From Bacillota bacterium (lineage in GTDB: Bacteria; Bacillota; Sulfobacillia; JABLXB01), in NCBI GenBank assembly GCA_013178305.1, contig JABLXB010000003.1, positions 248,001-312,000 of the forward strand: DNA of 64,000 bases, given 5' to 3'. The notes under the pieces are model-generated. The model made no database searches and had not been told where the DNA came from. It saw only the letters and a program-made list of their open reading frames with translations. The position numbers and the translations under genes are program-made. Shown here one piece after another: positions 24,620 through 49,098 of the stretch (the first letter of the stretch is position 1; every line of letters begins with the position of its first letter).

Positions 24620-24733
24620 CTAGACAACCAACGCCGCGAAAGGGCAAACCCGCCGAAAGGCGGGGGCGCAAAACCAACGGACCTAACGCCCGCAAGGGCC
24701 AGGGTGGCCGGGCTGCCGAACGACGAAGGTTAG
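24620..24733 (+). ncRNA. Cyclic-di-GMP-I (GEMM) riboswitch aptamer
   Basis: The conserved GEMM-I blocks appear in order: AGGGCAAACC, a CGCC-GAAA-GGCG hairpin (GNRA tetraloop), GGGCGCAAAACC, ACCTAA (tetraloop receptor side), a GCCC-GCAA-GGGC hairpin, and GGCCGGGCTGCCGA. The ends close by AACC (24626-24629) with GGTT (24728-24731). The G at the third position of AGGGC corresponds to the base that pairs with c-di-GMP in the classic aptamers, favouring c-di-GMP over cGAMP. It lies in the leader of the Flp pilin gene at 24839. Confidence 0.9.
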
Positions 24734-43795: not shown

Positions 43796-44407
43796 TCAGA
43801 GACCTGCGGTCCTCGCAGTCCCATCCCCGCCAGGCGTTTTTGCGTGTAGCACCAGGAAGTTCGCCAGTATCTTCTTCCCCTCCCTGGTAAGGATGGACTC
43901 CGGATGGAATTGGACCCCTTCCACGGGATAGAAGCGATGGCGAACACCCATCACCGTACCGTCGTCAACCTCGGCCACTACCTCCATCTCATCAGGAAGA
44001 GACACCCTGTCGATCACCAGTGAATGGTACCTGGTCGCAACCAGCGGGTTTTCTGCGCCTCGGTAAATGCCGCGGCCGTCATGTCGTATCACGGATGTTT
44101 TTCCGTGCATCAACCTGGGTGCCCTCACAACCCGCCCGCCGAAGGCGACTCCTATGGCCTGATGCCCGAGGCAGACGCCGAGGATGGGCACTCGCGGCCC
44201 GAAGGTCTTGATGATCTCGATGCAGATCCCTGCGCGTTCTGGCGTACCCGGCCCCGGGGATATGACTATCCTTTCGGGTTTCATCCGAGATATCTCGGCC
44301 GTAGAGATCCGGTCGTTACGGTAGACTACCGGCTTAGCCCCCAATTCCCCCAGGTACTGGACGAGATTGAAGGTGAACGAGTCGTAGTTGTCAATAACCA
44401 GGATCAT
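43796..44407 (-). CDS. trpG: Anthranilate synthase component II (glutamine amidotransferase)
   Basis: 203 residues from ATG at 44407, beginning MILVIDNYDSFTFNLVQYL. Amidotransferase motifs: PGPGTP, GVCLGHQAIG with nucleophile Cys, HGKTS, and the catalytic dyad in VQFHPES. It supplies ammonia to TrpE. An upstream open extension of 20 codons is ignored because it lies in trpE. Overlap with trpE is 4 bp. Confidence 0.97.
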   Translation of the reverse strand: MILVIDNYDSFTFNLVQYLGELGAKPVVYRNDRISTAEISRMKPERIVISPGPGTPERAGICIEIIKTFGPRVPILGVCLGHQAIGVAFGGRVVRAPRLMHGKTSVIRHDGRGIYRGAENPLVATRYHSLVIDRVSLPDEMEVVAEVDDGTVMGVRHRFYPVEGVQFHPESILTREGKKILANFLVLHAKTPGGDGTARTAGL

Positions 44408-45903
44408 ATCAACCCTTCCCCAGTCACTTCGAGGGCTCGCAGCAGGGCTTTGGCCTTGTTGACACACTCCTGATACTCCCGCTCAGGGTCGGAATCCGCG
44501 ACAATTCCCGCCCCTGCCTGGAAGTAAGCCTTGCCTCCGCTGAACACGATGGTCCGGATGGTAATGCACGTGTCCATGTTCCCCAGGAAGCCAAAGTAAC
44601 CGACAGCCCCGGCATACGGCCCGCGCTTCGTGGGCTCCAGCTTATCAATGATCTCCATCGCTCGAACCTTCGGGGCCCCCGAAACGGTACCGGCGGGGAA
44701 GCACGCAGCAAAGGCGTCGAATGCGTCTCTGCCTGTCGCAAGCCTTCCTCTCACTCCGGAAAGGATGTGCATCACGTGCGAGTACCTCTCTACCGTCATG
44801 AATTCCGGCACTTCCACCGACCCGTATTCGCAAACCCGTCCCAAATCGTTTCTCCCGAGATCGACAAGCATCACGTGCTCCGCTCTCTCCTTCTCGTCAG
44901 CAAGCAATTCCCTCTCAAGAGCCCTGTCCGCCTCAGGCGTATCCCCCCTGGGCCGGGTCCCGGCGATGGGCCGAGTCTCGAGGACCCCGTGCTCGAGACG
45001 CACGAGCATCTCAGGCGAAGAACCCACAAGAGATATCCCGTCGAAGTCCATGAAGAACATGTAGGGCGATGGGTTGATGCTTCGCAGCGCCCTGTAAACC
45101 TCAAAGGGTGGTACGGATGCCTCCGCGTGGAAACGCTGGGATAAAACCACCTGAAATATCTCCCCGGCGGCAATGTAATCCTTCGCACGCCTGACCATTT
45201 CCATGAAAGAGCCAGGCTCCATGTTGGCATGGATCGACAACGCCCTGTTCCCAGGCGCGGGAGGACCGGCAGGAGATGCATGACGCGCGTTGTCTTCCGC
45301 TTCGCAGGAATTACGGATCCGGTCTGTGAACTCGCTGATTCTGGCCACGGCGGCCCTATAGGCCAGCGCCGGCGGGCGGTCATTCACGACAGCGTTTACG
45401 ATGACCTTTATCTTATGGGTCACATGGTCAAATACCACAACCACCTCGGGGAAAACGAGAAAACAATCCGGTATTCCCATATCGTCCTCTACTTCCCCGG
45501 GCAAGGCCTCGTAGAAGCGTACCAGGTCGTAAGACATGTACCCTACCGCGCCACCGAAAAACCGCGGGAGGCCCTCAACGTCGCCCACTCGAAACTGCCT
45601 CATTATCCCCCGGACAACTTCCAGAGGATTTCCCTCGGCGGTTCTCTTACCCCCTCTTTTGTCGATCTCTACTTTGCTTCCCCAGCCACGTACGGTGATG
45701 AACGGGTCGAACCCGAGGAAAGAGTATCTCCCTAACCTTTCCCCGCCCTCCACGCTTTCCAGCAAGAAGCCGCACGTCTTGTCGCGAAGCTTCTGGTAGA
45801 CGGAGATAGGCGTCTCCATATCGCAGACCAGCTCGCTGTACACCGGAATGAGGTCACTTTCGCGGCATTGCTCGACGAATGCTTTTTCATCAGGCCGATA
45901 CAT
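44404..45903 (-). CDS. trpE: Anthranilate synthase component I
   Basis: 499 residues. N-terminal feedback region with LLESVEGGERLGRYSFLGFDP, then the chorismate-binding domain with GSSPEMLVR, RPIAGTRPRG, DLGRNDLGRV, GTVSGAPKVRAMEII and YAGAVGYFGF. It makes anthranilate with TrpG. The LLES motif near residue 48 is the usual tryptophan-binding element, so feedback inhibition is likely. GGAGGG lies before the ATG. First gene of trpEGDCFBA. Confidence 0.98.
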   Translation of the reverse strand: MYRPDEKAFVEQCRESDLIPVYSELVCDMETPISVYQKLRDKTCGFLLESVEGGERLGRYSFLGFDPFITVRGWGSKVEIDKRGGKRTAEGNPLEVVRGIMRQFRVGDVEGLPRFFGGAVGYMSYDLVRFYEALPGEVEDDMGIPDCFLVFPEVVVVFDHVTHKIKVIVNAVVNDRPPALAYRAAVARISEFTDRIRNSCEAEDNARHASPAGPPAPGNRALSIHANMEPGSFMEMVRRAKDYIAAGEIFQVVLSQRFHAEASVPPFEVYRALRSINPSPYMFFMDFDGISLVGSSPEMLVRLEHGVLETRPIAGTRPRGDTPEADRALERELLADEKERAEHVMLVDLGRNDLGRVCEYGSVEVPEFMTVERYSHVMHILSGVRGRLATGRDAFDAFAACFPAGTVSGAPKVRAMEIIDKLEPTKRGPYAGAVGYFGFLGNMDTCITIRTIVFSGGKAYFQAGAGIVADSDPEREYQECVNKAKALLRALEVTGEGLI

Positions 45904-45938
45904 AAATTTTCCCTCCTTTCATCGCATGTCCCGGGTAG

Positions 45939-45978
45939 AAAAAGGCCTCCCATCCCGACCAGGGACGGAAGGCCTTTC
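45939..45978 (-). terminator. Second terminator of the trp leader
   Basis: On the minus strand AAAGGCCTTCC pairs with GGGAGGCCTTT with a 15-base loop, followed by TTTTTC. It lies immediately after T-box motif 2 and 36 bp before trpE, so antitermination must pass it as well as the first terminator. Confidence 0.85.
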
Positions 45979-45993
45979 CGCGGTGCCACCCCA
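45979..45993 (-). promoter_or_regulatory. T-box motif 2 (antiterminator core)
   Basis: GGGGTGGCACCGCGG on the minus strand, the canonical T-box sequence whose bulge pairs with the NCCA end of uncharged tRNA. It is preceded by a short stem-loop (GTCACGG-GCAA-CCGTGAC) and by AAGGAGTACC, but not by a Stem I. Confidence 0.88.
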
Positions 45994-46051
45994 ATTACGT
46001 CACGGTTGCCCGTGACATCGCTCAAAGGTACTCCTTGAGGCCGCCTGAAAA

Positions 46052-46083
46052 CGAAAAGCCTTTCGTCACGGGACGAAAGGCTT
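46052..46083 (-). terminator. First terminator of the trp leader
   Basis: On the minus strand AGCCTTTCGTC pairs with GACGAAAGGCT with a CCGT loop, followed by TTTTCGTTTTC. It competes with antiterminator 1. Confidence 0.88.
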
Positions 46084-46084
46084 C

Positions 46085-46098
46085 GTGGTGCCACCCAT
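46085..46098 (-). promoter_or_regulatory. T-box motif 1 (antiterminator core)
   Basis: TGGGTGGCACCACG on the minus strand, downstream of the full Stem I and of GAGGAGTACC. It forms the first antiterminator. Confidence 0.85.
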
Positions 46099-46392
46099 GT
46101 GAGATCGCACGAGATGATCTCCCTCGACGGGTACTCCTCAAGAGGCGACTCTCAGTTTCATACCCTCCCTCTTTTCACGGCGAGGGATCCGGCAGAGCCT
46201 ACCACCTCTCGCTCCACACGGGAGCACCGCCTGTCTTGCGACTGTTTTGTGCAGAGGCTTCGGTTTGCAGCTTGTGGGCCCATTCAACACGACCGTGCGG
46301 GCTGACCTTCCACCGCCATCAGCTCGCTGAGCCGCCGGCTTCGTGCCTACTCTTCCCACGCATCGCCTTTACTTGTTATTTGATTAGGTCGC

Positions 46393-46421
46393 ACTATATC
46401 ACTCCACAGACCGGATGTCAA
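46393..46421 (-). promoter_or_regulatory. trp operon promoter
   Basis: On the minus strand TTGACA (46421-46416) and TATAGT (46398-46393) are separated by exactly 17 bp. Transcription would start near 46386. The promoter overlaps the last bases of the upstream lipoprotein gene on the same strand. Confidence 0.85.
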
Positions 46422-48181: not shown

Positions 48182-49098
48182 CAGGCGTTACCTCCCTCTC
48201 TGGCCCCAGGAGATTTCAAGGCGTAACGGCCGAGTATGGGCTCGAGTTTCCAGTACATCCAGTGGGTCATGGGTAGGGCAAGGAAAATCGTCGCGTAGAC
48301 CCCGTCCGCCATGGTAGCGAGGTTCGACGCGCCGGCGAACGCCGTAATCTGGTCCTTCAAGTGTGGATAGAGAGCGATGAGGCTACCTGAAGATGCCGCC
48401 ATCATGCTCCCGCTCCCAACACCGCAGGCCATGGCGAGCGCGTATGGGTGGAGCGGAGTGACACTCGCCAGGAATCCCGCAAACAGGCCCATAAACACGG
48501 CCCCAAACAGGGTCCCCACCACATACACACCGAGAACGCCGCGCCCCTCGGGACTGTCGAGGCCGTACTTCTCGCTGATAATCGCGACGTTCGGCTCACG
48601 GCCGATGGAGTGGGTAGCCCCTATGGTTTCCCTTTTCAACCCCAGGAGAATCGCTATCGGCACCCCGATCAATGCGGTCCCGAGGTTGCCGAGTTCCTGA
48701 AGGATGAGCGCCGGGCCTGCGCTGAGAATCGTCTTGATGTTTGGGCCAATGGTCACCGCTATCTTTGCTACCAGAAAGAGTATGGATACCGTTATGATGG
48801 GGGATGCGACCTTGCTTTCGTCCGCATTGAACAGCTTAAGGTGCGCGATCCCCCGCCCGGCGTTACCGACACCCAACCAGAAGAAACACCCGGGTGCCTT
48901 TTCCTGGAATATGGCGAAGTCCTCTCCTCCCATCGACGGCAACGGCCTGACTATCGCACGACTGTGACCGAGCACGCAATGGACGCAGTCCTGGCGGCGG
49001 CGTGCGCGATGGCCTGCGCGGGCCTCGATCCGGTATTGGACGAAGACTGCGTTGCGGAAGTACTGCAGGAGTCCCGTTCCGGCAGCGTACGGTAACAA
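48181..49098 (-). pseudogene. Chimera of M20 peptidase C-terminus and DUF3100 membrane protein
   Basis: The frame (305 codons) begins with unrelated residues, then reads PSMGGEDFAIFQEKAPGCFFWLGVGNAG, the C-terminal metal-ligand region of M20 amidohydrolases. From about residue 100 (ASPIITVSILFLVAKIAVTIGPNIKTILSAGPALILQELGN, in part) it becomes a DUF3100 integral membrane protein with six or more helices (GATHSIGREPNVAIISEKYGLDSPEGRGVLGVYVVG, in part). The two are normally separate neighbouring genes, a peptidase and its transporter-like partner. A deletion has apparently fused their remnants; the M20 catalytic domain and the DUF3100 N-terminus are missing. Confidence 0.7.

Follow-up and report, generated by a model that had tools for sequence, protein, structure and literature searches.

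One Stem I sensor and two antiterminator/terminator pairs in the trp operon T-box leader of a Bacillota bacterium

The leader of the trp operon examined here carries one T-box Stem I sensor followed by two complete antiterminator/terminator pairs before trpE. It lies on the minus strand of the window, i.e., the whole 64,000-nt stretch of contig JABLXB010000003.1 that was analysed, between a sigma-70-type promoter and the trpE ATG at 45903 (Table 1). As far as sequence can establish it, the leader combines one sensor with two intact switching units of equal tRNA-end specificity. From this anatomy we infer that both terminators are functional, that each answers to tRNA-Trp via the single Stem I, and that module 1 hands over to module 2 during transcription. 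We put the probability that the leader makes two termination decisions in series, both requiring uncharged tRNA-Trp on the single Stem I, at roughly 0.6.

Architecture of the trp leader

The covariance search with RF00230 that the earlier note had called for returned a whole-model match (positions 1-219) at 46372-46066 (-), with 77.4 bits and an E-value of 6.3e-17, and a partial match to the 3' part of the model (156-216) at 46026-45961 (-), with 32.2 bits and an E-value of 2.7e-5. Both fall below the Rfam gathering score of 93, which is reached by none of the 17 full T-boxes of this genome (0/17); related trp leaders that exceed it exist, e.g., L191 and L141 (cmscan). Since a gathering threshold is a matter of curation and no structural feature, membership in RF00230 was retained. 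Among the 17 T-boxes, the partial second unit occurs at the trp T-box only.

Table 1. Features of the trp leader and its surroundings (positions in the window)
Feature	Position	Strand	Evidence or remark
Sigma-70-type promoter, TTGACA-17-TATAGT, extended -10 TG	46393..46421	-	11/12 matches; found 1 vs 0.5 expected in shuffles
T-box Stem I, the leader's sole one	46270..46366	-	RF00230 alignment
Specifier UGG (Trp)	46280..46282	-	inside GAA-UGG motif at 46285-46280
Stem IIA/B (F-box) element	46175..46192	-	RF00230 alignment
Stem III, module 1	46101..46121	-	RF00230 alignment
T-box 1 / antiterminator 1	46069..46097	-	UGGC pairs with tRNA-Trp GCCA; -5.2 kcal/mol
Terminator 1	46048..46083	-	overlaps antiterminator 1; hairpin -17.7 kcal/mol, then UUUUCGUUUU
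Spacer hairpin carrying GGAGUACC	46021..46039	-	same motif precedes module 1 Stem III; from module-to-module sequence comparison
Stem III-like hairpin, module 2	45999..46016	-	RF00230 alignment
T-box 2 / antiterminator 2 (UGGC)	45961..45992	-	RF00230 model 156-216; -9.4 kcal/mol
Terminator 2	45938..45977	-	overlaps antiterminator 2; hairpin -29.1 kcal/mol, then UUUUUC
Ribosome-binding site AAAGGAGGG	45911..45919	-	leader sequence
trpE	44404..45903	-	TIGR00564 592.9 bits, above cut-off; then trpG, trpD, trpC

The GAA-UGG specifier of Stem I fits the regulated pathway, as it stands upstream of trpEGDC, and the T-box bulge reads UGGC in both modules, complementary to the GCCA 3' end of the tRNA-Trp encoded by the same genome (anticodon CCA; G000:C8, L111). 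In each module, the antiterminator and a terminator followed by a U-run are mutually exclusive. The earlier note had described a single Stem I with a TGG specifier and two T-box/terminator modules in close series with a Stem III-like hairpin between them, and this description was borne out: the modules are separated by a spacer of 56 nt that folds as a pair of short hairpins, of which one resembles Stem III. No hidden second Stem I, which the same note had regarded as counter-evidence, was detected, and neither the RF00230 alignment, the fold, nor inspection of the spacer revealed what defines a full tandem, a further Stem I that bears a specifier. A Stem I would not fit into the 56-nt spacer, and no Stem I signature was seen in it or in any of 14 trp-locus spacers. 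An ultrashort Stem I with the specifier in its loop was also considered and rejected, since these same spacers lack a consistent loop UGG. The leader thus has a second antiterminator/terminator pair without a Stem I of its own, as in partially tandem T-boxes.

The motif GGAGUACC and a GAG stand ahead of the hairpin in module 1 and module 2 alike, so the duplicated piece seems to extend back to this motif. By eye, there seems to be a further stem between Stem IIA/B and Stem III (46175-46135, -), of the form GGGUA...UACCC or GGUAUC...GUACC, which can also be seen in the trp leaders L180, L189, L191, L192, and L206; only its 3' half (GGAGUACC) recurs in module 2 of the leader studied. Elsewhere in the window, a c-di-GMP-I riboswitch was recognized at 24633-24720 (+) (RF01051, 68.7 bits).

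Relatives and conservation of the second module

In 11 of 30 trpE leaders of the same class (the one studied included), 73-140 nt separate two T-box cores, and the sole Stem I has UGG; most of the others have a single T-box, and one, L181, is a full tandem with two Stem I's. A full-length RF00230 match was obtained by cmscan at all 10 relatives among these eleven double leaders, and a partial second match at E < 0.01 was obtained only for L048 and L141 among the 15 loci searched. In the trp leaders L188, L191, L192, and L207, the cores are spaced by 73-84 nt and the spacer shrinks to ~22-31 nt with short hairpins, which leaves the antiterminator/terminator pair as the minimal unit.

To extend the comparison, 398 sampled genomes of the phylum were searched for pairs of T-box cores separated by 75-105 or 106-136 nt, i.e., too close for an intervening Stem I. 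Matches were found in 38/398 genomes for the shorter gap, which is that of the leader studied, and in 34/398 for the longer one, 63 genomes in total (9 with both); since the search pattern tolerates zero mismatches, these are minimum counts. Reversed, the pattern gave a single match in either search. Considering these counts, and that partially tandem T-boxes have already been named as a kind in a review (PMC7583486), the earlier note's description of the form as "less usual" was too strong. At the 70 close-double loci, the specifiers were Phe (UUC) at 45, Trp (UGG) at 14, and Tyr (UAC) at 3; 7 loci precede serC-like genes, with a specifier UCC read by eye, and 1 was left unassigned. The Trp count includes L125, L144, and L207, which were classed as 'other' by the script and have GAA-UGG by eye, and inspection of the Phe leaders showed the specifier in the context GAAG-UUC. 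Loci L119-L178 are mostly Phe-specifier doubles, many of them upstream of DAHP-synthase-like ORFs (MVVVMK...), and some precede serC-like genes and transporters, with the genes named by eye.

The base N of the T-box, which reads the tRNA, is identical in modules 1 and 2 at 66/70 loci, compared to 41.3 expected from composition. Agreement between the modules at M, R, and the next two bases is about that of chance (37 vs. 34, 48 vs. 43, 47 vs. 43, and 31 vs. 29.5 expected; 70 loci). The four mismatches at N are all C/T at trp loci, and both C and T can pair with G73. The modules' common ancestry is therefore eroded beside N yet not at N itself, which fits both modules needing the same tRNA end. 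Since many of the loci are homologous leaders of the DAHP-synthase type and not independent, the count is descriptive and no strict test.

Compensated pairing is likewise retained in the antiterminator and terminator of both modules among the relatives. In antiterminator 2, pair 4, which adjoins the invariant CG/CG pairs, is G-U, G-C, or A-U in 60/67 loci, and pair 5 is A-U, G-C, G-U, or U-A in 57/66 loci, with changes on both sides. Observed pairing was 42/47 at pair 4, vs. 38.0 upon shuffling of the 5' letters (p ~0.013), and 40/47 at pair 5, vs. 30.7 upon shuffling, with 0/5000 shuffles as high; since the loci are related, these figures are indicative only. Pairs 4-6 of the module 2 terminator also exceeded shuffles, and the drop upon shuffling of the terminator partner was larger than for the antiterminator. 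Under imposed pairing, the antiterminator of module 2 is weak at a few loci (L144, L206), which weighs against the serial reading given below. A stronger antiterminator 2, as might offset the absent Stem I, holds for the leader studied (-9.4 vs. -5.2 kcal/mol) but was rejected as a general rule (33 stronger, 32 weaker, n = 67). Taken together, these sequence comparisons make it most likely that module 2 works and recognizes the tRNA 3' end that module 1 reads.

Proposed mechanism and alternatives

In T-boxes generally, the terminator prevails unless tRNA stabilizes the antiterminator. We propose that the leader acts as a transcriptional T-box riboswitch of the trp operon in which a Stem III-antiterminator-terminator unit, present in duplicate, is served by one Stem I/II sensor. 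Uncharged tRNA-Trp would dock on the UGG specifier of Stem I, and its free GCCA end would stabilize antiterminator 1, so that RNA polymerase passes terminator 1, which would be powerless once the polymerase has moved beyond it. The tRNA still tethered to Stem I, or a replacement uncharged tRNA-Trp on Stem I, would then base-pair with T-box 2 through its GCCA end, thereby opening terminator 2. Charged tRNA-Trp would fail at both modules, and the serial decisions could lower the leak and steepen the response to tryptophan starvation. The narrower version, in which one and the same Stem I-bound tRNA is passed from antiterminator 1 to antiterminator 2 during transcription and its charge state is checked twice, can be advanced tentatively, with the odds somewhat against it. 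A point against the serial reading is that, should antiterminator 1 keep hold of the tRNA for long, that tRNA could not get to T-box 2 within the few seconds that pass until terminator 2 forms. The earlier note had left two options, that one decoding element controls both terminators or that module 2 comes into play once module 1 has switched; its interpretation is supported in part, as either option would fit the data.

Other readings of module 2 have to be weighed against the serial one. Module 2 has every part of a discriminator unit, Stem III included, and the first tRNA may remain on antiterminator 1; a second, free uncharged tRNA might then be bound by the UGGC-GCCA pairing alone, with help from the module's own Stem III and without Stem I, leaving Trp specificity mainly to module 1. 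Binding of tRNA by its NCCA end alone is weak, however, and would be poorly specific, as GCCA ends also occur on this genome's tRNAs for Ser, Asp, Asn, Gln, and several Arg; we regard such binding as unlikely. It is similarly doubtful that module 2 serves as a back-up terminator or represents the decaying remnant of a full tandem, with a tRNA-deaf antiterminator past which a fixed fraction of polymerases reads. The full tandem trp leader L181 in the same class makes loss of a Stem I a possible route, and terminator 2 is on average the stronger (mean -26.0 vs. -23.2 kcal/mol for terminator 1, n = 67). However, a remnant or plain terminator would have shed its T-box, and in many genera antiterminator 2 retains compensated pairing as well as an N base that matches.

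The anatomy implies that a single tRNA end can pair with only one T-box at a time, and a tRNA on antiterminator 1 might block antiterminator 2, with terminator 2 always taking its share and expression graded and low. Since this would yield poor expression under starvation, contrary to the need of a trp operon, and leaves the conservation of T-box 2 unexplained, we consider it improbable. That T-box 2 is a chance resemblance and no T-box at all, as its 32.2 bits against a gathering score of 93 might suggest, can practically be dismissed: the full T-boxes of the same genome also score below 93, and the reversed-pattern control, together with conservation in relatives, rules out chance doubles. 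The serial reading is therefore the one we prefer.

Relation to known T-boxes

T-boxes containing duplicated terminator-antiterminator elements were reportedly described by Vitreschak and colleagues in 2008 (RNA 14:717). The leader studied is the same in kind as the partially tandem T-boxes, sharing with them one Stem I sensor, a duplicated antiterminator/terminator, and a place ahead of amino acid biosynthesis genes in Bacillota; it also duplicates the Stem III-like hairpin and the upstream GGAGUACC. Compared to the canonical single T-box (RF00230), its module 1 has Stem I, II, IIA/B, III, antiterminator, and terminator, to which a further switching unit is added. With full tandem trp T-boxes it shares two tRNA-Trp-linked terminators in series ahead of trpE, whereas its second unit lacks a Stem I and a specifier. 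Among contiguous riboswitches, tryptophan biosynthesis is the most significantly regulated pathway, via tandem T-boxes (PMC12452182), and for full tandems it has been put forward that double T-boxes may sharpen the response (PMC9413887). Given these precedents, the kind is already known; what is added here is one more trp example, a census across the phylum, and the comparison of the N base between modules.

Another T-box leader of this genome, outside the window, looks more unusual than the double trp T-box. At L115:1735-2045 (G000:C9, ~48234-48544), the leuS leader contains an entire tRNA-Ala(GGC) gene between Stem I (Leu specifier CUC) and the T-box, at the expected place of Stem III; no other gene of that anticodon was found in the genome. 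A search pattern for the 3' end of a tRNA immediately upstream of a T-box matched in 23/154 genomes of the class and 17/88 genera. Among 20 fetched loci, 16 contain tRNA-Ala(GGC) and L223-L226 have no tRNA; L209 and L210, from an earlier search, likewise carry it (carriers overall, L209-L222 and L227-L230). GAA-CUC is visible upstream in most of the carrying leaders. A literature search found no report of a tRNA gene inside a T-box leader.

The trp leader is a compact natural case of one sensor with two outputs. Together with some 70 relatives, whose specifiers are those for Phe, Trp, Tyr, and Ser, it opens the mechanism to direct testing: whether one bound tRNA is read twice, and whether the response to amino acid starvation is sharper. 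If true, the double charge check of one tRNA would amount to kinetic proofreading by an RNA switch.
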